From positions 1,491,501 through 1,555,500 of the forward strand of contig NZ_CP113866.1 of assembly GCF_026914305.1 (NCBI RefSeq): a stretch of DNA of 64,000 nt, in the 5' to 3' direction. Source of the stretch: Caldicellulosiruptor acetigenus (GTDB taxonomy: Bacteria; Bacillota; Thermoanaerobacteria; Caldicellulosiruptorales; Caldicellulosiruptoraceae). Every line of letters begins with the position of its first letter. Within the stretch, counting starts at the first letter, position 1. The notes beneath the pieces were generated by a model. It searched no databases and had not been told where the DNA came from. It saw nothing but the letters and a program-made list of their open reading frames with translations. This document shows, in pieces, positions 43,853 to 56,318 of the stretch. The position numbers were made by a program, and so were the translations under genes.

Positions 43853-45133
43853 TCATTTCCTTTTTGAAGAGCAAAATTCCTGAGCAATTTCAACGAACCT
43901 TTCTACATCATTTTCGCTATGTGCCACAGATAAGAACATTGCTTCAAATTGAGAGGAAGGAACATAAATATGGTTTTTTATCATATATTCTGCAAAACTT
44001 CTGAACAAGTCTAAATCGCTCATCTTTGCCATCTTGAAATTTTCTACCTTTTCAACTCCAAAGAAGATTGTTAGCATTGAACCCATTCTATTGATGCAAA
44101 AAGTTAAATTGGAATTAGAAAAAACTTGTGTCAACTCTCTTTCAAGCTTTTCGCCTAATATCTCCATGTTACTATAAAAATGAGGATTTTCTTTAAGCTT
44201 TTTAATAGTAGCGTACCCTGCACTCATCACAATTGGATTGCCCGACATTGTGCCAGCTTGAAAGACATTTCCCTGTGGTGCTAAACACTGCATAATCTCT
44301 TTCTTGCCACCAACCGCGCCACAAGGAAGTCCTCCACCAATTATCTTGCCAAAAGTTACTAAGTCTGGTTCAACATTATATATAGCTCTTGCACCTTTTA
44401 ATGAAAGCCTAAAACCGGTTATTACTTCATCGAAAATCAGAAGACTGCCATGGAGGTTACAAATTTCTCTTAAAGCCTGTAAAAATTCTTTTTTTGCAGG
44501 CACAACACCCATATTCCCCGCAATGGGCTCAATTATAACAGCTGCTATCTCATCTTTGTTTTCTGTAAAAGCTTTTTCAACTGAATCTAAATTGTTGTAT
44601 TCAACAACTATTGTATTTTGCACAATGTCTTCATCAATTCCTTTTAATTTAAGCTCAGCTATCGCTGACCCTGCCTCTTTTAGAAAGATGTCATGATGAC
44701 CATGATAACAACCTGCAAACTTAACTATTTTTTTCTTCCCAGTATAGCCTTTTGCAAGTCTTACAGCAGTCATTGTAGCTTCTGTTCCCGAATTAACAAA
44801 TCGGACCATATCAATTTGGGCTGTCTCACATACAAGCTTTGCCATCTTATACTCTATTTCGGTTGGTGCTCCAAATGCTATTTGCTCCACCACCACTTCT
44901 TTTATGCTATTTACAACATCAGGGTCACAATGTCCTAATATCATTGCCCCCCAGGACAGGACAAAATCAATGTATTTATTACCATCCACATCAAATATAA
45001 AGCAGCCTCTTCCTTTTGATATGACAGGTGGGGTAATATTCAAATTTTTAAATGCACGAATTGGACTGTTAACACCACCAGGTATATACCTTTTGGTTTT
45101 GTCAAATATCTCTTTACTTTTGTCAAGTCTCAT
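43853..45133 (-). CDS. hemL: Glutamate-1-semialdehyde 2,1-aminomutase
   Basis: HemL converts glutamate semialdehyde to 5-aminolevulinate using PLP. The 426-residue protein has PGGVNSPIRAF, VNSGTEATMTAVRLAKG, CYHGHHDI, IFDEVITGFRL and the PLP lysine in TFGKIIGGGLPCGAVGG. It is the last gene of the hem operon, two bases after hemB. Together with HemA it forms the C5 route to tetrapyrroles. Confidence 0.97.
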   Translation of the reverse strand: MRLDKSKEIFDKTKRYIPGGVNSPIRAFKNLNITPPVISKGRGCFIFDVDGNKYIDFVLSWGAMILGHCDPDVVNSIKEVVVEQIAFGAPTEIEYKMAKLVCETAQIDMVRFVNSGTEATMTAVRLAKGYTGKKKIVKFAGCYHGHHDIFLKEAGSAIAELKLKGIDEDIVQNTIVVEYNNLDSVEKAFTENKDEIAAVIIEPIAGNMGVVPAKKEFLQALREICNLHGSLLIFDEVITGFRLSLKGARAIYNVEPDLVTFGKIIGGGLPCGAVGGKKEIMQCLAPQGNVFQAGTMSGNPIVMSAGYATIKKLKENPHFYSNMEILGEKLERELTQVFSNSNLTFCINRMGSMLTIFFGVEKVENFKMAKMSDLDLFRSFAEYMIKNHIYVPSSQFEAMFLSVAHSENDVERFVEIAQEFCSSKRK

Positions 45134-45135
45134 GC

Positions 45136-46113
45136 TTACAGCTCCTTTCGATTTAATATCTTTGCAGCCTCTAAAGCATGGTATGTTATAATCGCATCCG
45201 CCCCTGCCCTCTTAATTGCAGTCAATATCTCAATTACAACCTCTTCTTCATTCAAAAAACCTAATTTGCCTGCACTTTTTACCATGGCATATTCTCCACT
45301 AACATTATATGCTATAATTGGAATGTTGAATTTTTCTCTGGCAGCAGAAACTACATCAAGAGAGGTGAGGGCTGGTTTTATAATTACTGCATCAGCACCT
45401 TCTAAAATGTCAGCTTCTATCTCGCGCAGAGCTTCTCTTTTGTTTTGATATGGCATTTGATAACTTTTTCTGTCACCAAAAGCAGGCCTTGAGTTTGCTA
45501 CCTCTCTAAATGGTGCATAAAGTGAGGAAGCAAACTTTGCACTGTAAGGAATTATTGGAACATACTCAAAACCATGGATGTCAAGTTTCTTTCGGATGGC
45601 AGCAACTCTTCCATCCATCATATCAGATGGGCAAATTACATCTGCCCCTGCTTTTGCATAAGATAATGCTATTCTACTTAAAACCTCTATTGTCTTATCA
45701 TTATCTATTTTATCACCTTTCAAAATACCACAATGTCCATGTGATGTGTATTCGCAAAGGCATACATCGGCAAACACCAATATATCTTCGGAGTATTCTT
45801 TTATTCTCCTTATTGCCTGCTGGACTGCTCCATCATCTCTTGTGGCATAGCTCCCCATTTCATCCTTTTGGGAAGTTACGCCGAATAAAATTAAACCTCC
45901 AATGTCAGCTTTCTTGACCTCTTCTAAGACTTCTTGAAGTCTGTCAACAGATACCTTCACTATACCATCTAATCCCGGCATTCTTTCAAACACGTTTTTA
46001 CCATCATCAATAAACAAGGGAAGAATAAACTCTTTGCTATTAAGTCTTGTCTCACAAAAAAGTTCTCTTAAAGCCTTTGTCTGTCTTAATCTTCTTAATC
46101 TTTTAAACTCCAT
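45136..46113 (-). CDS. hemB: Delta-aminolevulinic acid dehydratase (porphobilinogen synthase)
   Basis: HemB condenses two 5-aminolevulinates to porphobilinogen. The 325-residue protein has the zinc-site cysteines in DVCLCEYTSHGHCG, ICPSDMMDGRV, YSAKFASSLYAPFRE and active-site lysine in VIIKPALTSLD. The catalytic-site cysteines indicate the zinc-dependent type. It overlaps the upstream cobA-hemD gene by 11 bases. Confidence 0.97.
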   Translation of the reverse strand: MEFKRLRRLRQTKALRELFCETRLNSKEFILPLFIDDGKNVFERMPGLDGIVKVSVDRLQEVLEEVKKADIGGLILFGVTSQKDEMGSYATRDDGAVQQAIRRIKEYSEDILVFADVCLCEYTSHGHCGILKGDKIDNDKTIEVLSRIALSYAKAGADVICPSDMMDGRVAAIRKKLDIHGFEYVPIIPYSAKFASSLYAPFREVANSRPAFGDRKSYQMPYQNKREALREIEADILEGADAVIIKPALTSLDVVSAAREKFNIPIIAYNVSGEYAMVKSAGKLGFLNEEEVVIEILTAIKRAGADAIITYHALEAAKILNRKEL

Positions 46114-47578
46114 TTTTGACCACCTCTAAAATTTTATTTACTATTCCCTCATCATTTGCCTCATCACAAGCGATACTTTTAATACCGAAACTTTCCAATG
46201 TCTTTTTTGTGTGTTCACCTATTGAAATAACTATTTTATTAAAAAGCATATCAGTCCCATAGCATTCTACAAAGTGTCTAAACATTCCCGAACTTGTAAA
46301 TACATATATATCTGAATCATAAACTGCATCATTTGGGTTTTTAGTAAACTCCATTGAATATGCAAAGATGGTGTCAACTTCAAATCCCAAACTTGTAAGG
46401 GCATTTTTAAGATAATCTCCTGCTATTTTAGACTGAACTGTTAATATCTTTTTGCTCTTATCAACTTCATTTTTGAAAATTCTGATTAATCCATCCGATG
46501 AATGTTCATCTGGAATATATTTTACCCCAAATCCTCTCTTTTGTAGTGCAAGGGCAGTTTTTTTACCAATTGCAGCAAAGTCACCTTTTATGTTTCTTAT
46601 ATCTATCTTTTTCTCAATCAGATAATCGAAAAAACTATCTACACCATTCACACTTGTAAACACCAATATATCATACTCAGGCAGAAAGCTTATAATTTTG
46701 TCAATCTCCTCTTTGTGGTGAACAAGTCTTGAGCAGCAGCCATCAACAACGTCTGCACCAAGACTTGATAGCAAACTTTTTATATTTCCAGAAACACTTT
46801 TTGGACGTGTGATACAAATTCTTTTTCCATATAAAGGTAAACTTTCATAAAAGGAAAGCTTATTTCTAAACCTTATAACTTCACCTATTACAAATACCAT
46901 CGGTGATGCAACCTGATTTTTGAATTTTCCACTTGCAAAGTCTTCTAAATACCCGCTAATTACCTTTTGCCGACCAGTTGTTGCATTAATCACTGCTGCA
47001 GCAAGGGTTTTAGGTTCCTTGCCATGTGAAATTAATTTTTGTGAAATATTTTCAACACTTTCCGCTGACATGAGAAATACTAAAGTCCCGTCAAGTTTAG
47101 AAATTACATTCCAATTCAGCTCTTCATCGTTGCACGTATGCCCAGTAAACACATGAAATTCACGTGCAAGCTTTCTATATGTGATAGGAATGCCTGCAAA
47201 AGTAAGAGCAGAGCAAAATGAGCTAATACCTGGAATAACTTCAAAGGATATATTATTTTCAAATAATTTTTCTGCCTCCTCTGCACCCCTTCCAAATATA
47301 TAGGGGTCACCACCTTTTAGCCGAACAACATTAAAACCCTTTTTTGCATAGTCTATCATGAGTTTTATAATCTCATCCTGAGAAAGAGTATGGTTTTTTG
47401 GCTCTTTGCCACAGTAGACATAAATTGCCTCATCTTTTGCAAGTCTCAGCAAATTTTTATTTACTAACCTATCGTAAATTATTACATCAGCAGTTTTTAT
47501 AGCGTTCAAACCTTTTAGTGTTATCAAGTCCTCCATGTATGGACCAGCACCAACAATATATACCTTTCCAGTTTTCAA
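46103..47578 (-). CDS. cobA-hemD: Uroporphyrinogen-III C-methyltransferase / uroporphyrinogen-III synthase fusion
   Basis: The 491-residue fusion has an N-terminal SUMT/CobA domain (about 1-240) with YIVGAGPYMEDLITLKG, VYCGKEPKNHTLSQ, VVRLKGGDPYIFGRGAEEA, PGISSFCSALTFAGIPIT and TLVFLMSAES. The C-terminal HemD domain (about 245-490) contains RICITRPKSVSG, FTSVNGVDSFF and FTSSGMFRHF. One polypeptide thus closes the tetrapyrrole ring and methylates C2 and C7 to precorrin-2. TTG 47578 has AAAGGAGG eight bases upstream. The fusion is common in clostridia. Confidence 0.93.
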   Translation of the reverse strand: MKTGKVYIVGAGPYMEDLITLKGLNAIKTADVIIYDRLVNKNLLRLAKDEAIYVYCGKEPKNHTLSQDEIIKLMIDYAKKGFNVVRLKGGDPYIFGRGAEEAEKLFENNISFEVIPGISSFCSALTFAGIPITYRKLAREFHVFTGHTCNDEELNWNVISKLDGTLVFLMSAESVENISQKLISHGKEPKTLAAAVINATTGRQKVISGYLEDFASGKFKNQVASPMVFVIGEVIRFRNKLSFYESLPLYGKRICITRPKSVSGNIKSLLSSLGADVVDGCCSRLVHHKEEIDKIISFLPEYDILVFTSVNGVDSFFDYLIEKKIDIRNIKGDFAAIGKKTALALQKRGFGVKYIPDEHSSDGLIRIFKNEVDKSKKILTVQSKIAGDYLKNALTSLGFEVDTIFAYSMEFTKNPNDAVYDSDIYVFTSSGMFRHFVECYGTDMLFNKIVISIGEHTKKTLESFGIKSIACDEANDEGIVNKILEVVKNGV

Positions 47579-47627
47579 TATATTAACCTCCTTTGGAAAA
47601 TTAACTTCATACAAGTCTTACCATAAA

Positions 47628-48500
47628 CTAACTTTCAAGCATCTTACTTAGCTTATTTGCAAGAGACAAAAAATCATCTTTGTTACCCTCAATACTTGCT
47701 TTTACTAATTTATCACCTCTTAAAAGGGAAGCAAATGCATAAATTTTATTCTGGTCTGTTTTGCAAAAAACGCCAATCGATGAATGACACCCTCCTCCCA
47801 AAAACTTCAAAACAAGCCTTTCAAATTGGGTTTGGATATATGCATCAGCATCGTTTATTTTGCTTAAGATGCTTTTATAGGGACTATCTTTAAGGCATTC
47901 AATGCATATTGCACCTTGACCAGGGCAAGGTGTAATTTCATTTATATCAAAAATATAACTTACATAAGAATCTAACTTTAATCGTTTTAATGCAGCATAG
48001 GCAAGCACGATACCATCAAGGCCTTCTGATTGAATCTTTGAAAGTCTTGTCTCTATATTTCCTCTTATGTTAATAACTTGTATATCCTCTCTTAAATTCT
48101 TTAAATGCACTTCTCTTCTCAAACTGCTTGTTCCAATTTTTGCGTTTGATTTTAGCTGGTAGAATCCCAGACCATCTTTTGACACAAGTACATCCCTGGG
48201 ATCCTCTCTTTCAACAACTGCCACAATCTCAAAATTGCTATCCATTTCACAAGGCAGGTCTTTTAGACTATGCACAGCTAAATCTATTTCTCTTGATAAA
48301 AGTGCAAGTTCAATCTCCTTTACAAATACACCGGGGCTTTTAAACTCTTTTAGACTTTTTGTTTTATCAATATCTCCTTTTGTTTTTATAGGAACAAATT
48401 CACATTCAATACCTAAAGTCTGCTTGATTTTTCTTGCTACAATATCAACTTGAATTCTGCTGAGTCTGCTGTCCCTTGCGCCAATTCTTAACTTTTTCAT
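47628..48500 (-). CDS. hemC: Hydroxymethylbilane synthase (porphobilinogen deaminase)
   Basis: HemC polymerises four porphobilinogens. The 290-residue protein has RIGARDSRLSRIQVD, IDLAVHSLKDLP, GTSSLRREVHLK, INIRGNIETRL and the cysteine that carries the dipyrromethane cofactor in FLGGGCHSSIG. It begins in the stop of the upstream Met8-like gene (ATGA). Confidence 0.97.
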   Translation of the reverse strand: MKKLRIGARDSRLSRIQVDIVARKIKQTLGIECEFVPIKTKGDIDKTKSLKEFKSPGVFVKEIELALLSREIDLAVHSLKDLPCEMDSNFEIVAVVEREDPRDVLVSKDGLGFYQLKSNAKIGTSSLRREVHLKNLREDIQVINIRGNIETRLSKIQSEGLDGIVLAYAALKRLKLDSYVSYIFDINEITPCPGQGAICIECLKDSPYKSILSKINDADAYIQTQFERLVLKFLGGGCHSSIGVFCKTDQNKIYAFASLLRGDKLVKASIEGNKDDFLSLANKLSKMLES

Positions 48501-49171
48501 CTTGTCACCTCAGAATCCCAAACATCTTCGTAAAACAATTTTATAATCTTATTAGCATATCCTTTTTTGAAAAAATAATAAAAGTCATCTGAACAAACGA
48601 ATTCCAATATTTGGTCTTTTTGCGGATGATGTTTCAATTTACTTCTCAAATCAGTTACCCACTTTGAGAATATAGAATAAAACTGAAGATAACTTAGAAT
48701 TTTCTGGGCAAGATATTTTGATAGCTTTGGATTTCCTCTTCTTATTGACAAGCTAAAAACAAATTCATCAGTTCTTTTTTGAGCACCAAGTCTTAAGTTT
48801 CCAAGCCTGTAATCTGAGCACACCAAATATAGTTTATTTAGTCTTTTGCAGTGCCAGATAATTCTTTTTTCAAGCTTTCTATTTGACACCCCAATTACAA
48901 CTATGTGCTTATCCTTTAAAAAACTTTTGCAAAACTTCCCTCTTTTGAGCTTAAGATATCCACTTTTCAACTCTCTGAAGCCTATATCAAACCTTGGCGA
49001 TAAAACTTCAACCTTGCAACCAGCTCCTAAAAAGGTTTTGGTTTTTATCAAAGAAGCTTTCCCTGCCCCTATAACTCCCACCTTAATATTATTTGCTACA
49101 AGTCCAATATGCATAAGATTTTCAAAGCTTGAATCTACTTCAAGAATATTCTCCTCATCAGATTTGAACAA
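48497..49171 (-). CDS. Divergent precorrin-2 dehydrogenase / sirohydrochlorin ferrochelatase (Met8/CysG-N-like)
   Basis: The 224-residue protein has a Rossmann start [18 protein letters not shown] followed by [12 protein letters not shown] middle region VCSDYRLGN then leads to [20 protein letters not shown], the layout of Met8p/SirC, which oxidises precorrin-2 to sirohydrochlorin and may insert iron. It is more diverged than usual: the NAD loop is GAGKAS rather than GGGxVA, and a 28-residue N-terminal extension overlaps the hemA end by 37 bases. The start TTG 49171 has GGTGAAA close by. Position between hemA and hemC supports a siroheme role. Confidence 0.78.
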
Positions 49172-50319
49172 ATTTCACCACTTCCTTCTTTGTGTGCCTC
49201 TCTTAAAACTTCAACTGCCCTATCAATATATAAATTTGCTATCCTTAGCAAAAGCACTTCAATTTTTTCTCTCTCTTGGTTGTCAAAATCTTTTAACTTC
49301 TTCACTTGCATTTTACACAGCTGCTCTGCATGTTTCTTCATGTCCATAATTAAGTTTTTGTACTGCCTAAACTCAAGCCAATCAATAAATTCATCAACAT
49401 ATTTATCAATTATATGGTAGTTCTCTTGCATCTTTGAAATTCTAAATTCTTTGTTAACAGTATCCATCTTATGAACTTGGTCTATATCAATCACTTTAAC
49501 GTTCGGAAGTTTATATACCTCAACATCAACATCTCTTGGCACAGCAAGGTCAAATATGAGTAAACTTTTTCCCTCTGGTATATCATCTTTGTGGACAACT
49601 GGATGTGGGGCAGATGTTGAACATATTAGACACTGGGCTTCTAAGATTGCCTCCTTTTTATCATAATACCCAAACTTTTCAGGATTTAGCTTAACGAATT
49701 GGTCAATTTTTTCATTTTTTCGTCCTATCAAAAACACTTTGTCGACATCTGAATTTTTAAAGTAGTTGCAAAATAAAAATCCAATATTTCCAAGTCCAAT
49801 TATAGCAACTTTTTTGATATTTGACTCCTTTATAACTCTTCCAACAACTGATGCAATTGTAATGGGATGCTCATTTAACCTTGACGTTGTTCGAAACTCT
49901 TTCGAACATCTTAAGCTCAAATCAAAAAGTCTGTCAAGGACTGGGTTTTTACCGCCAGCTGAATCTGAAATCTCTTTTGCTTCTTTTACTTGAGCTACAA
50001 TTTGTTCTTCTCCAACTATAAGCGAATCAAAACCACATACAACTTCAAATAGATGTTTTATACAATCTTTGTCTTTGTAAATATAAAATAAAGGCATATA
50101 TTTCTTATCCCAGGCAAGTTCAGTGAATATTTCTTCTATGTCAATATATTCCTCTGAAAAGAAGTATATTTCTGTTCTGTTGCAAGTACTGAGAATTATG
50201 ACTTCGTTTGCTAATTTTTTCAAGTCTATAAGCTTTTCTTGTAGCTTGGTCTTTGTCAGAGAAAACTTTTGTCTGATATCAATATCTACTTTGTGATTGA
50301 TTCCAATGACCCATAGCAC
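49135..50319 (-). CDS. hemA: Glutamyl-tRNA reductase
   Basis: HemA reduces glutamyl-tRNA to glutamate semialdehyde, the committed step of the C5 pathway. The 394-residue protein has [15 protein letters not shown], the nucleophilic cysteine in [39 protein letters not shown] (NADPH) and DLAVPRDVD. The start is GTG 50319 with GGAG ten bases upstream. It opens the hem operon behind an unusually long leader. Confidence 0.96.
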
Positions 50320-50780: not shown

Positions 50781-51050
50781 TTAAAAAAGTTCTCCTTCCC
50801 TGGTAAGCTCATAATATGTGTGATTTCGATGCTCAACACTTTTTCGTCGACGATGGTAATATTTAACTATTCTTCTTTCCACTCGCTTGATGAGCCCTCT
50901 CTCCTCCAGACTTTGAAGCCGATTCCTGCTTTCCTCCAAGGATAAACCCAGACGTATCGCCAGAAGTTTTGCATATTCCGGTCCAAGCTTTTTGAGGTAG
51001 GCAAGGATTGTTAAATCAAGAAGTTCATCTTGGTCATGCTTGACCGGCAT
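50781..51050 (-). CDS. DUF2250 winged-helix DNA-binding protein
   Basis: The 89-residue protein has a clear wHTH pattern: TILAYLKKLGPEYAKLLAIRLGLSLEE (described here in two parts, helix and recognition helix), then RLQSLEERGLIKRV and a C-terminal basic wing ending HTYYELTREGE. This matches DUF2250, a small predicted regulator mostly known from archaea and anaerobes. AGGAG is upstream of the ATG. It lies downstream of the TatD-like gene and may control the neighbouring sulfur genes; this is inference. Confidence 0.75.
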   Translation of the reverse strand: MPVKHDQDELLDLTILAYLKKLGPEYAKLLAIRLGLSLEESRNRLQSLEERGLIKRVERRIVKYYHRRRKSVEHRNHTYYELTREGELF

Positions 51051-51096: not shown

Positions 51097-51858
51097 TTAA
51101 ATACTAAAAATTTCCTCAGCATTGTATCTTGCAATTCGATCAATAATTTCTGGGTAAGCTCGATTCAATTCTAAGTACCGCACCGTCTTGGGTACACTTA
51201 GTAGATCATTGGGTTTGAGATTACTGTAATCGCTATTTAGTACACCTCGTTGGAAACGTTCCAGATGATTCAGCAACAGTTGAGAAGTAAGCCCATCCTG
51301 GCGAATTGTAAGACCGGGCACAGCACCAAAATCTTCGATTAAGTCAATAATATCTAAATTAGCATGGTCTATTATCACTTTTCGGGGTTCAATTCCTACC
51401 TTAGCAGCAATCTCAATTGTTTTCTCGGTAATTTCAACCCTGTTGTCTGGCGGAGTATGAAGGATTACTGGAACCCCATATTCCTTGGCAATCTTCAATT
51501 GTTCATGGAGGACCTGCTGCTCCCGCTGGTTTCCCTCATGCAGCCCAATCTCACCAAGCCCAACAACACCACTCATTTTAAGGTAGTCTGGAAGAGCGTC
51601 GATCACTCTGGTCCAATCGTCCGGTATTCCCATGGGGTGAATTCCAATGGTAACGTAAAGCTTAATACCATTTTTAGCAGCAATATTCATAGAAAGAGTT
51701 AACATCTGATGAAAATGATCAAAGAGTGTTTCGGCATGTTTTGCCCCAAAAAATAGGGAACAACCAATAATTTTCCTTACCCCTGCTAATGACATATTTT
51801 CCCATCCTTCGAACGGGAGTAACGAAACATGCACATGAGAATCTACAATTTCTTTCAT
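51097..51858 (-). CDS. TatD-like metal-dependent hydrolase (archaeal-type, COG1099-like)
   Basis: The 253-residue TIM-barrel hydrolase has metal-binding DSHVHVSLL, YVTIGIHPMGIP, GLGEIGLHEG (Glu ligand), PVILHTPP and VIIDHANLD (His ligands) and an Asp in LNSDYSN. The style is closer to the COG1099 group than to housekeeping TatD DNases, which have FHETGLDY-type motifs. Substrate unknown: nuclease or small-molecule amidohydrolase. ATG 51858 has GGTG ten bases upstream; ATG 51867 abuts that site. It lies between a DUF2250 regulator and a DsrE-like gene. Confidence 0.78.
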   Translation of the reverse strand: MKEIVDSHVHVSLLPFEGWENMSLAGVRKIIGCSLFFGAKHAETLFDHFHQMLTLSMNIAAKNGIKLYVTIGIHPMGIPDDWTRVIDALPDYLKMSGVVGLGEIGLHEGNQREQQVLHEQLKIAKEYGVPVILHTPPDNRVEITEKTIEIAAKVGIEPRKVIIDHANLDIIDLIEDFGAVPGLTIRQDGLTSQLLLNHLERFQRGVLNSDYSNLKPNDLLSVPKTVRYLELNRAYPEIIDRIARYNAEEIFSI

Positions 51859-51901
51859 CAATCTCATTCACCTGCCTTATTTTAGATTTAAGACATATAA
51901 A

Positions 51902-52288
51902 TCAAGGCTTGATATAGGCATATCCTTCTGCCTGTTTTCTGACAATTTCTGTTATGCCAGCTGGTACAACTGTGACAAAATCGGGAAGGCTCTCTTCATC
52001 GACAAGCTGCCCTTTGAGAGCATTCCGGCATGCTACAAATTTTACTCCCACCTTTGATAATTTCTCCATCTGTTCCAAAAGCGATCCATTAATTGATCCA
52101 TCGCACAAACCACCGCCTTCAGCTGGCTGGCATCTATTTTTAAAAATAGAAACTGCCTCACCATTAATCACTACTTCAATGTTAGCATTATCTTGCCCAA
52201 CATCATTTAAAAAATTAGTGATATTTCCGAGTACTATCTGCCACCTGCTTAACTCATTGATATGGAAGAGAACCTTTAATCCATTCAT
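51902..52288 (-). CDS. DsrE/DsrF-like sulfur-relay family protein (COG1416-like)
   Basis: The 128-residue protein opens with LKVLFHINELSRWQIVLGN and has VEVVINGEAV-like and FVACRNALKGQ segments. It ends VTVVPAGITEIVRKQAEGYAYIKP (two pieces: VTVVPAGITEIV and KQAEGYAYI), the classic COG1416 pattern. The Cys in ACRNALKG is at the DsrE sulfur-carrying position. Two more Cys lie in RCQPAEGGGLC. ATG 52288 has AGGTG five bases upstream; GTG 52321 would add 11 residues. Likely involved in persulfide trafficking beside the sulfite reductase genes. Confidence 0.82.
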   Translation of the reverse strand: MNGLKVLFHINELSRWQIVLGNITNFLNDVGQDNANIEVVINGEAVSIFKNRCQPAEGGGLCDGSINGSLLEQMEKLSKVGVKFVACRNALKGQLVDEESLPDFVTVVPAGITEIVRKQAEGYAYIKP

Positions 52289-52367
52289 CCAAACACCTAC
52301 TTTCTGTTTAGTTTCAGCCACCTCGCTAAATGTGAAAAATATCTTTTCAAACCTCTCCTCTTTTACT

Positions 52368-53300
52368 TCACCTTAAAATACCATTTTTTCTAAGATACTC
52401 GGATAACTGGTCCCCATTGATAACTACCATATTGCCGTTTTTATTATATACCCATACTCTATCTTTCAAAACGACAACATTGTAATCTGCTTCCTTATCC
52501 ATAGCACATGCATTACCACAACCACTGATGGTTATATTTCCTTGTAAATTGCCTGAGGATACTATATGCTCAGCTATAGCATGGACATCCCCAACACCAT
52601 TTTTGCAATAGCGCGCACCTATGCATGTCTTGATTCCTTCACTATTCCATGCCAATGCTATTCTAAGGAATGGTAAAAACCCCATGCGGTTAATAACCTC
52701 AGCCAATCGTTCGTTTTGTGCAACCTGAATATAGCCATTAACAATACGTTTAACTGTATCGATTAGATATTCTTCCTTGATAACCACATCTAACCGAGTA
52801 CCTAACTGTGGCTGACGACCACCTTTGCCTCCGAGATAAATCCAATAGCCGTCTTTGACTGCAATGATGCCCAAATCATTTAGTTGTGCCTCAACGCATG
52901 AATTAGGGCAACCATTTACAGCAATCTTAAATTTTTTCGGCGTCGCAAGTCCTGCAAGGCACTGATTGATTTGCGCTGCCAGTGGTGTAACGTCGCGAAT
53001 TACACGTTTGCAATGCTCACAAGAACATACTTTAACATTTCGTACTACTGGCCCAATATCAGCCAAAGGCAGGCGAACCTTCTCCAACTCTTCAGCAATC
53101 TTGTCAAAATCCTCTGGCTTTATGCCAAAAATCATTATAGCCTGAGTAACTGTAAGCTTCGCACCTCCGTATTGTTTGCTTAGCCTCCAGATAGTCTCCA
53201 GCTGTTCTGGTTCAAGATACCCATTGACAGGATGGATTACAACAGCGTAACTACCATCTAACTGCTGTATAAACCCTTTATTGACGTACTTTTTCTCCAT
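52368..53300 (-). CDS. Nitrite/sulfite reductase-like hemoprotein with two siroheme/[4Fe-4S] signatures
   Basis: The 310-residue protein starts with a ferredoxin-like half domain (about 15-80). A first NIR_SIR iron-sulfur region follows with CSCEHCKR and NGCPNSCVEAQLND (about 93-150), then YLGGKGGRQPQLG and ERLAEVINRMG. Residues about 228-275 carry a second signature: CIGARYCKNG and SGCGNACAMD, that is C-x5-C and C-x3-C. The usual form has one set in this length, so the second may be a duplicated half module lacking its ferredoxin-like part. Each quartet could hold a siroheme-coupled [4Fe-4S] cluster. The gene lies between asrC and a DsrE-like gene, separated from asrC by a terminator. Confidence 0.8.
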   Translation of the reverse strand: MEKKYVNKGFIQQLDGSYAVVIHPVNGYLEPEQLETIWRLSKQYGGAKLTVTQAIMIFGIKPEDFDKIAEELEKVRLPLADIGPVVRNVKVCSCEHCKRVIRDVTPLAAQINQCLAGLATPKKFKIAVNGCPNSCVEAQLNDLGIIAVKDGYWIYLGGKGGRQPQLGTRLDVVIKEEYLIDTVKRIVNGYIQVAQNERLAEVINRMGFLPFLRIALAWNSEGIKTCIGARYCKNGVGDVHAIAEHIVSSGNLQGNITISGCGNACAMDKEADYNVVVLKDRVWVYNKNGNMVVINGDQLSEYLRKNGILR

Positions 53301-53357: not shown

Positions 53358-53390
53358 ATAAAAAAGAGTGGACTACTATTATAGCAGCCC
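53358..53390 (-). terminator. Probable terminator after asrC
   Basis: Arms at 53381-53390 and 53370-53379 pair with two G-U pairs (the central few bases form the loop). Minus strand T residues (53365-53361) follow four bases later. It would separate asrABC from the downstream reductase-like gene, at least partly. Confidence 0.55.
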
Positions 53391-53420
53391 ATAGGTTTTA
53401 GATTATTCAGAAGATGAATG

Positions 53421-54434
53421 TTAACGCTGGTTTACAGGTTTTAAGTTAAAGTTAGATCTATATTCGGTTTCTGTCCACAAAACTCTTTGAGCTACCATAG
53501 CTTCTGGGTTTAGTTGGACATCTTTTAATATCATTTCTTTAAATTTCTCATATCCCACTCTATCAATAAGGTGTCCGCCATGGAGATATTGAGGTTTATT
53601 ATTCAACACATAAGCAGAAAATGCCTCCCAGTTTTTAAGTACACCCAAAACCACATCTTCTGTAACCCAGTTTAAGAAGATTTTTCCCATACGAGGTGTT
53701 TGCTTTCCTGTTCTGCCGCCGATCAATACCCTGTAAAATTTTTTAGGGTTCCTGGTCCAAGCCCCGGTTGGGCACACAAGAACACATTCGCCACAGCCGA
53801 CGCAACAGCAATTGTCTTTGACGATTTTGCCTTTTTCAACAGATAAAACACCCGTTGCATGGCGTGCACATGCTTCCACACATTTTTTACACCCTATACA
53901 GCGCTCATAATCGTATTCTGTTTTTGTGATACCAATTATACCAAAATCATTAAAGTGAGCTTTGCCACAGTCATTGGGGCATCCTGATATACTTAACTTT
54001 ATGTGATAATCGCTGGGGAATATAATCTTTTCTATTTTCCTGGCCAGGTCGGTTGTGTCAATGTTAGCATATATGCAATGACGATTGCCTATGCAAGCCA
54101 TTATATTACGAGCACCTATGGTCGGATATCCGTTGTCATTAACTTCCATTTCAACACCGCATAACTTTACTTCTATATCCTCAATATAAGACCTTATATA
54201 TTTGTTAACCGCCTCTATATTTTCATACTTAATACCAGGAATTGAAATTGTCTGCCTCATCCCTAAGTGAATTTCACCATTTCCCCACGTTTCCGCTATA
54301 TGTTTGAACAATGGAAAATATTTAGCGCTTATTACACCACCAGGAACACGCATTTGAAGCATAAACTCACCACTTACTTTTGACTGACGATAGCAGTTTC
54401 TGCGAAGTTTTTCTACATCAATATCATAACCCAT
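53421..54434 (-). CDS. asrC: Anaerobic sulfite reductase, subunit C (siroheme)
   Basis: AsrC is the catalytic siroheme subunit reducing sulfite to sulfide in six electrons. The 337-residue protein has GEIHLGMRQTISIPG, the siroheme/[4Fe-4S] set CIGNRHC and SGCPNDCGKA, then an inserted ferredoxin with CIGCKKCVEAC and CVGCGECVLVC, and RVLIGGRTGKQTPR. GGAGGGGG precedes the ATG. It follows asrB by 18 bases in the order asrA-asrB-asrC. Confidence 0.95.
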   Translation of the reverse strand: MGYDIDVEKLRRNCYRQSKVSGEFMLQMRVPGGVISAKYFPLFKHIAETWGNGEIHLGMRQTISIPGIKYENIEAVNKYIRSYIEDIEVKLCGVEMEVNDNGYPTIGARNIMACIGNRHCIYANIDTTDLARKIEKIIFPSDYHIKLSISGCPNDCGKAHFNDFGIIGITKTEYDYERCIGCKKCVEACARHATGVLSVEKGKIVKDNCCCVGCGECVLVCPTGAWTRNPKKFYRVLIGGRTGKQTPRMGKIFLNWVTEDVVLGVLKNWEAFSAYVLNNKPQYLHGGHLIDRVGYEKFKEMILKDVQLNPEAMVAQRVLWTETEYRSNFNLKPVNQR

Positions 54435-54452
54435 TATAATTCCCCCTCCTCA

Positions 54453-55244
54453 TCAGTCCAGTAAATTTTTCGCCTTGGTATAATTAAAAACAGGGCCTTC
54501 TAAACAAACATATGTTTCATTTATCTTACAATGACCGCACTTGCCAACACCACAGGACATTCTTCTTTCAAATGATACCCAGATTTTCTCTTCAGATACT
54601 CCGTTTTTTAAACATTCTAAAGCGGCGAAGTGCATCATAACATGAGGTCCTACGATTACTACATTATAGTCCTCAAATGAATTGAATGGTATTTTCTTAA
54701 TGTGTTCGGTAACAAGGCCAACTTCAAAACCTTCTATTATATTTCTATCAAGAGTATAGATCGTGTTAAATCTTGTTCTAAAATTTTTTAGATCCTCTTT
54801 AAACAAAATATTCTTTTCATCCCTGAATCCAGCAATAAAGTACAGGGATTTTATTTCATTTGGATTTTCGTAAAAATACTTTAAAAAACTTCTAACAGGA
54901 GCAACTCCAGTACCACCGGCAATGACAACCAAATGTTTGCCCTTAAATTCCTCTATCGGAAATGAATTACCGTAAGGTCCGCGCATAAATATCTTATCAC
55001 CGGGCTTTAAATTGAATATCTCATTGGTAAGCTTTCCTACTTTCCTTATAGTAAGCTCCACCCAATTTTCACCCATAGAACTTACTGATATAGGAGCTTC
55101 TCCAATTTTAGGTATAGATACCTGAAAAAATTGCCCATGTTTAACTTTTGCGCTGGTTTCTACTCTAAAGGTATATACGTCTTCTGTTTCGGGAATAATG
55201 TCTATTATTTTATGTGGATGGGGAAGCATTATATTTTCGCTCAT
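54453..55244 (-). CDS. asrB: Anaerobic sulfite reductase, subunit B (FAD/NAD(P)H)
   Basis: The 263-residue flavoprotein of the ferredoxin-NADP reductase type has FQVSIPKIGEAPISVSS (FAD), MRGPYGNSFP, VIAGGTGVAPVRSFL (NAD(P)H) and a C-terminal [2Fe-2S] set, SCGVGKCGHC and YVCLEGPVF, as in PyrK-like proteins. It passes electrons from NAD(P)H to AsrA/AsrC. The ATG abuts the asrA stop (TAAATG). Confidence 0.95.
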   Translation of the reverse strand: MSENIMLPHPHKIIDIIPETEDVYTFRVETSAKVKHGQFFQVSIPKIGEAPISVSSMGENWVELTIRKVGKLTNEIFNLKPGDKIFMRGPYGNSFPIEEFKGKHLVVIAGGTGVAPVRSFLKYFYENPNEIKSLYFIAGFRDEKNILFKEDLKNFRTRFNTIYTLDRNIIEGFEVGLVTEHIKKIPFNSFEDYNVVIVGPHVMMHFAALECLKNGVSEEKIWVSFERRMSCGVGKCGHCKINETYVCLEGPVFNYTKAKNLLD

Positions 55245-56318
55245 TTATTTTCCCTCCTCAGTTGATGGTGCTTGTTCTCTTGTTCGGCTAACTTCTCCTT
55301 TTTTAAGTTTTTCCACTTCATCATATAAACGATTAATAGTAGAAGAAAAAGATATTAGTTTAGGACATCTTTCCTCACAACGTCCACAGCCAACACACAT
55401 ATTCTCATCTTTAAAACGAACTTTGTAGTCGTAGATTTTGTGTAGGGTTCTAAACCTCATCCGCTCTCCAGCAGTTTTTCTAAAGCTCCATCCTCCCGCC
55501 ATTGTTGTGAAATCTTCGTGCATACAGCTTGTTTGAACCCTTCTTCTTTCACCTACTCTGCCATTTTCGGTATATATGATATCTAAGGTATTAAAACAGC
55601 TGCAGGTTATACACACTGCGCTGCACGCTCCACAGCTTATACATCTTGAATTATAACTTTCCCACATCTCAAGGTTGTAAATTTTTTCTAACAACTCTTG
55701 GCTATCAATTTCAGGGATATTAACTTTTGTTGGGTTAGAAGTAACAAACTCAGGTGTAAATTCTACTTCTCTTTCATTGGCAAATAAATTTATAAATTCA
55801 TGGTCTTTTACTTCTACCAATATGTTGTCCCCATCAAATCTAACTGCTAAACTGTAGTTGTCGGTTTTGTTAGAACCCATTGAGACGCAAAAACAACTAT
55901 CCCAACTTTCTTTGCATTCCATCAAAATAAACTTTACTTTTTCTCGTAAACGCTTGTAGTAGATATCTTCTGCTCCCCCATTTTTGAGAAAGATAGTGTC
56001 AAGTCGCCTAAAGCCATTTATATCACAGGAACGGGCAAATATTAGAATCTTTTTATCGTCTACTTTGCTTTCTCTATATTCATCTTCGGTAAAGTAGAAT
56101 AGTGCTTGGGTAATCGGATAGATCACTTCTTTTGGTGAAAAATGTGATTTCTCGTCATAGACTACATCCTCAATCGAGTTAATTTCTGCATATCGAATTA
56201 AATCTGTGTCTGAATAACGACCTCGCTTTTCAAAGCGTACAGGTGCATATATTCTATAGTCCTTTTGTAATACTTTTAAAATTTCATCCATTCTTTTAGT
56301 GCTTACACAATAACTCAT
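55245..56318 (-). CDS. asrA: Anaerobic sulfite reductase, subunit A (iron-sulfur)
   Basis: The 357-residue protein has the AsrA/hydrogenase-beta-like N-terminal region (YPITQALFYF, FARSCDINGFRRLD) and two C-terminal ferredoxin motifs, CISCGACSAVCITCSC and MCVGCGRCEERCP. It transfers electrons within AsrABC. GGGAG is seven bases upstream of the ATG. It is first in the asr operon and divergent from the LysR gene. Confidence 0.94.
   Translation of the reverse strand: MSYCVSTKRMDEILKVLQKDYRIYAPVRFEKRGRYSDTDLIRYAEINSIEDVVYDEKSHFSPKEVIYPITQALFYFTEDEYRESKVDDKKILIFARSCDINGFRRLDTIFLKNGGAEDIYYKRLREKVKFILMECKESWDSCFCVSMGSNKTDNYSLAVRFDGDNILVEVKDHEFINLFANEREVEFTPEFVTSNPTKVNIPEIDSQELLEKIYNLEMWESYNSRCISCGACSAVCITCSCFNTLDIIYTENGRVGERRRVQTSCMHEDFTTMAGGWSFRKTAGERMRFRTLHKIYDYKVRFKDENMCVGCGRCEERCPKLISFSSTINRLYDEVEKLKKGEVSRTREQAPSTEEGK

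Follow-up and report, generated by a model that had tools for sequence, protein, structure and literature searches.

A sulfite-reductase-like protein of Caldicellulosiruptor acetigenus with two conserved cysteine quartets and a single ferredoxin-like half domain

In the window, i.e. the whole stretch of 64,000 nucleotides of C. acetigenus DNA analysed here, an ORF on the reverse strand (52,368–53,300; like all window features below) encodes a sulfite-reductase-like protein of 310 amino acids with two cysteine quartets, introduced here as SiRL. The assignment is based on the reading frame, on Pfam and NCBIfam matches and on orthologues. The ATG start codon is immediately preceded by a strong ribosome-binding sequence (AGGAGGGG). 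Directly upstream lie the anaerobic sulfite reductase genes asrA, asrB and asrC (53,421–56,318), of which asrC (53,421–54,434) scores 411 bits against the TIGR02912 cut-off of 324, while asrA and asrB were assigned from sequence and gene order. Sulfate-assimilation genes follow upstream, past asrA. A scan revealed an intrinsic terminator between asrC and SiRL (53,369–53,391; RNA fold z −3.9), and the genes starting with SiRL thus probably have their own promoter.

SiRL is the first gene of a cassette. It is followed by genes for a DsrE-like protein (51,902–52,321; Pfam DsrE, MTH1491-like by sequence), listed with 139 amino acids and having a conserved start 12 residues later, and a TatD-like metal-dependent hydrolase of 256 amino acids (51,097–51,867; Pfam TatD_DNase, closest solved chain AF_1765). 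Both are conserved neighbours, and the order SiRL-DsrE-TatD is kept in most loci. Next comes a DUF2250 winged-helix protein (50,781–51,050; Pfam DUF2250), which belongs to the cassette in loci of Caldicellulosiruptor's class and in genome G366. Owing to an in-frame TAA codon, it is shortened to 89 amino acids in the window, compared with 108 in relatives. Further downstream, Pfam matches identify tetrapyrrole genes (43,853–50,319) leading towards siroheme: glutamyl-tRNA reductase, an NAD-binding precorrin-2 dehydrogenase-like protein, porphobilinogen deaminase, a uroporphyrinogen methylase/HemD fusion, ALA dehydratase and an aminotransferase. A few bases past the right edge of the window (L002; G000:C1:1555503 onward), the genome encodes a further siroheme protein of 304 amino acids, AsrC/DsrB-like and with a ferredoxin insert.

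The composition of the cassette varies between genomes. In the Moorella and Desulfovirgula loci it does not adjoin other sulfite genes. Most Moorella-type loci, PH28 and G194 include a RACo-type ASKHA protein; the window's cassette has none, and one is present elsewhere in the genome. The cassette RACo-type proteins (L033 8,288–9,862, L034 1,296–2,909 and L065 3,841–5,403) lack the N-terminal 2Fe-2S domain and, provided that they function as RACo does, would depend on electrons supplied by another protein. In four other genomes the DsrE-TatD pair occurs without SiRL. At two of these loci (L145, L146), the neighbours are genes that we take to be thiG, thiH, thiF and thiE of thiazole synthesis, which suggests a sulfur-transfer role of the pair itself. 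Our literature search returned no papers on the SiRL cassette.

SiRL begins with a NIR_SIR_ferr ferredoxin-like half domain (residues 12–74; 53,079–53,267; PF03460, E 3e-14), followed by a NIR_SIR domain, termed domain 1 (residues 84–213; 52,662–53,051; PF01077, E 1e-30). With 53 and 106 bits (Pfam cut-offs 24 and 27), these matches place the protein in the NIR_SIR siroheme-[4Fe-4S] superfamily. No second half domain was found with Pfam. Quartet 1 consists of C92-x4-C97 (53,010–53,027) and C131-x3-C135 within GCPNSC (52,896–52,910). Quartet 2, formed by C226-x5-C232 (CIGARYC; 52,605–52,625) and C261-x3-C265 (CGNAC; 52,506–52,520), is located outside the Pfam matches, in a 97-residue tail that reaches only 14 bits and stays under the Pfam cut-off. 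The superfamily motif CX4-5CXnCX3C, as defined in PMC8351635, is present twice, and both copies are invariant: C92, C97, C131 and C135 in 36 of 36 aligned sequences, and C226, C232, C261 and C265 in all 13 complete C-terminal domains.

Pfam, profile comparison and invariance bear out the claim of the first-pass annotation that two cofactor-type cysteine sets and a single half domain are accommodated in 310 amino acids; two conserved sets with one half domain in so short a chain is unusual. That annotation had also named homologues lacking one quartet as evidence to the contrary; there are none among the complete orthologues, and only distant single-module relatives are without the second domain. 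No weight should be given to its remark that the first set is one residue shorter than C-x5-C. The C-x4-C spacing is among the listed canonical siroheme motifs (PMC8351635), and x4, x5 and x6 spacings occur in the 36-sequence alignment, with C-x6-C forms among single-module relatives, which rules it out as an anomaly. C94, the middle cysteine of CSCEHC, is not conserved, other genera having SSQYC.

The tail (residues 214–310, boundary approximate; 52,371–52,661) was identified as a shortened second NIR_SIR domain, domain 2, which has neither a half domain of its own nor the GG loop. In profile-profile comparisons it matched domain 1 of the same protein with 95% probability (E 2e-8), single-module relatives with 95%, group III-type reductases with 96% (E 2e-9) and AsrC with 94%; these similar scores leave domain 1 or another reductase as its possible source. 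A genome search with the tail alone picked up domain 1 of SiRL itself (30% identity, E 4e-4). The best curated match (NCBIfam) is the C-terminus of CobG (E 1.5e-8, positions 325–382 of 388), a region matched by 13 of the 13 orthologous C-terminal domains. Judged from these sequence comparisons, domain 2 is a true NIR_SIR relative and homologous to domain 1. Homology and invariance rule out quartet 2 as a chance motif, and a frameshift or misassembly is ruled out by the same layout in complete orthologues of several genera. AlphaFold2 predicted a confident fold for the whole chain including the tail (pLDDT 91, pTM 0.87; ligand-free monomer), the tail alone reaching 81. A sequence search for a solved relative of domain 2 was negative, and its fold matches in the PDB (NirA, aSir, IspG) are weak, none having E <0.001.

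SiRL is a protein of thermophilic, anaerobic bacteria. Orthologues were found in Caldicellulosiruptor, Moorella, Desulfovirgula, PH28_bin88 and further genomes, being 70–97% identical overall and 64–94% in domain 2. The next relatives share about 28–38% identity and have one domain only. Among 398 genomes of the phylum there are 10 complete two-domain proteins, all with E 1e-184 or better; the next matches, at 1e-41, are one-domain proteins stopping near residue 215–220, and no intermediate family members were found in this set. The two-domain family is therefore rare and sharply bounded. Plasmid records yielded one-domain matches only, none covering 80% of SiRL, and weak NirB-type matches to the tail. 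Codon comparisons indicate that both domains are under purifying selection (dN/dS 0.06–0.23 where synonymous sites are unsaturated), with domain 2 evolving faster than domain 1 in most of them. Few parts of the protein are as conserved as quartet 2 and its surroundings (TCIGARYC, NG, GDVH and SGCGN).

In our tree, the first module of SiRL is monophyletic (100/100) and groups with NirB/alSir-like single-module proteins, apart from AsrC and group III-type proteins; long branches between the groups leave the exact sister unsure. The Caldicellulosiruptor proteins are nested inside a group comprising Moorella, PH28 and G038 (96/80), which points to horizontal transfer; the cassette has apparently moved horizontally. 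Two genomes from a different family within Caldicellulosiruptor's class (L023 and L025; possibly Thermoanaerobacter) have decayed copies 3' of asrC; G366 also has a decayed copy, and G011 a truncated one. The remnants at L023 (1,510–1,650), L025 (2,650–2,790) and L066 (6,690–7,020) are flanked by asrC on one side and by the remaining cassette genes on the other. What has disappeared at these loci is the siroheme gene; L023 and L066 still have TatD and the regulator, L025 only the regulator.

To our knowledge, no siroheme protein has been described that combines two intact quartets and just one half domain in a single chain, and none turned up in the literature searched, largely open-access papers. 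Domain 1 resembles alSir and the group I Dsr-LP in size, half domain, quartet and three of the four sulfite ligands, and the absent first ligand corresponds to Dsr-LP subgroup 'a' (PMC3448663). The definition of that class, a single module without ferredoxin domain and with three or four Arg/Lys, applies to domain 1 only. Instead of ending after the module (about 220–240 amino acids), SiRL continues with a 97-residue NIR_SIR-type domain at its C-terminus, which has a quartet of its own; alSir was compared by description. Of the curated full-length profiles, that of the NirB siroheme module fits domain 1 best (134 bits, residues 13–216), but SiRL lacks the FAD/NADH and Rubredoxin-like parts, and its score is far below the TIGR02374 cut-off of 578, which excludes NirB. 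Among solved structures, F420-dependent sulfite reductase (Fsr) is the best match of domain 1 in both sequence and fold; SiRL has neither the F420 part nor the inserted ferredoxin domain of Fsr, and carries domain 2 instead. Two NIR_SIR domains are also found in aSir/CysI and DsrAB. DsrAB has two cysteine sets as well, distributed over two chains, whereas aSir combines one set with two half domains and SiRL both sets in one chain with a single half domain; assignment to the aSir type (CysI/NirA) is thereby ruled out. CobG (precorrin-3B synthase) provides the closest curated counterpart of domain 2 in its shortened C-terminal NIR_SIR region, yet it is an aerobic monooxygenase. With 69 bits against the TIGR02435 cut-off of 235 and a local match to domain 2 only, SiRL is not a CobG. 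The window neighbour AsrC belongs to the same superfamily, but to a separate clade, and SiRL lacks its ferredoxin insert; 53 bits against the TIGR02912 cut-off of 324 exclude this assignment too. SiRL is a conserved, novel form within an enzyme family that is already known.

For the active site, we compared SiRL with MjFsr, whose residues R355, R388, R423, C428, K460 and K462 have been described (PMC10229431); the MjFsr numbering in our alignment agrees with these published residues. By position, they correspond to V21, T52, R87, C92, K123 and K125 of SiRL, the pairing of R388 with T52 being inferred after moving a two-residue alignment gap. Domain 1 accordingly has three of the four sulfite ligands (R87, K123 and K125), the first arginine being replaced by V21, and the aSir-type arginine corresponds to T52, a position occupied by Thr, Ser or Ala. 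Domain 1 also has every position that is invariant among single-module siroheme proteins, including R87, K90, K125, R198 and quartet 1. Domain 2, in turn, has none of the anion-binding residues (E221, Q253-G254-N255). In Foldseek superpositions only the first module fits Fsr (TM 0.62, 2.4 Å), whereas matches over both aSir halves have an rmsd of about 22 Å, so the ligand-free monomer model does not put domain 2 in the aSir position.

We tentatively favour the reading, at a little under an even chance, that SiRL is a siroheme sulfite/nitrite-type reductase working as a dimer of first modules, with domain 2 holding a [4Fe-4S] relay cluster. It would belong to the oxyanion reductases with siroheme and [4Fe-4S], more precisely to their small single-module (alSir/NirB-like) class, and would have acquired a second, shortened NIR_SIR domain. 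Because each chain has one half domain, a pair can be completed only by another chain, and we infer an Fsr-like pairing between the first modules of two chains. The siroheme-cluster on quartet 1 of one chain would then face R87, K123 and K125 of the other, and domain 2 may carry a plain [4Fe-4S] cluster passing electrons to the active site, a task for which Fsr, Dsr and AsrC have ferredoxin inserts. Sulfite is the likely substrate, or else a similar oxyanion of sulfur (or nitrogen), and the DsrE-like partner may receive the sulfur once it is reduced. The asrABC, sulfate-assimilation and siroheme-precursor genes and the DsrE partner are the context of this proposal. On the other hand, plain sulfite reduction would be redundant, since asrC and another siroheme protein are encoded nearby. 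The absence of the first sulfite-binding arginine and of the aSir-type arginine also speaks against it, as does the position of the Moorella and Desulfovirgula cassettes away from other sulfite genes. Of the options in the first-pass annotation, one active and one relay centre is thus the most likely, two full cofactors are still in play, and storage or sensing found no support.

A different arrangement, rather unlikely in our view, would be a single-chain miniature of aSir or DsrAB, in which the two domains pair within the chain, the catalytic siroheme sits on quartet 2 facing R87, K123 and K125, and quartet 1 forms a structural second centre as in DsrA. Cysteines and anion ligands are split between the two halves of E. 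coli CysI. More generally, the cysteine-bearing half of aSir has no anion ligands and the other half retains them (PMC10229431). Domain 2, with cysteines and no ligands, and domain 1, with the ligands, fit this split, and quartet 2 has the canonical C-x5-C spacing; but there is no second half domain to partner the first, the model puts domain 2 elsewhere, and quartet 1 is fully retained, unlike in aSir. It is also unlikely that domain 2 is just a structural, cluster-stabilised appendage, taking no part in electron transfer, on an ordinary small sulfite/nitrite reductase. Single-module relatives are presumed functional without such a domain, and the faster evolution of domain 2 would agree with this, but the strong conservation around quartet 2 would not.

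We consider it quite unlikely that SiRL acts on a tetrapyrrole, or drives corrinoid or tetrapyrrole reduction with a RACo-type ATPase, instead of reducing an oxyanion. The affinity of domain 2 to the CobG C-terminus, the RACo-type ORFs in the cassettes of most Moorella loci, PH28 and G194, and the tetrapyrrole genes that come next in the window would fit. However, the CobG reaction requires oxygen (PMC7242693) and the hosts are anaerobic; the window's cassette lacks RACo even though the genome has one, the proximity of tetrapyrrole genes is not conserved at other loci, and SiRL as a whole is far under the CobG cut-off. That SiRL stores or senses siroheme or clusters, or is a non-catalytic relic, appears highly improbable: the first sulfite arginine is absent (V21) and the gene is prone to decay, as seen from the remnants and the truncated copy, but intact copies are strongly constrained and have R87, K123, K125 and both quartets, and across loci there is no link to a chelatase or apo-enzyme gene. 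Decidedly speculative, finally, is the idea that the cassette is an undescribed system with SiRL as its redox core. In it, the two-centre siroheme protein would work together with a RACo-type activator that hydrolyses ATP, a sulfur carrier (DsrE) and the TatD-like hydrolase, and the reduction, ATP-assisted or at low potential, would fall outside the known chemistry of sulfite and nitrite.

According to a published scenario (PMC10229431), assimilatory sulfite reductases arose when a single-module ancestor was duplicated and one cysteine set was then lost. SiRL, as a living single-chain protein in which both sets are kept and the second copy is reduced, would represent another outcome of such a duplication, and it can serve to test the role of a second NIR_SIR cluster. 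For siroheme proteins found next to RACo-type ATPases and DsrE-like carriers, its cassette offers a concrete case open to experiment. Another combination, a DUF1858/hybrid-cluster-associated redox disulfide domain fused to a single NirB-like siroheme module, was seen in a widespread Bacillota group (L110, L113, L114, L116 and L122).
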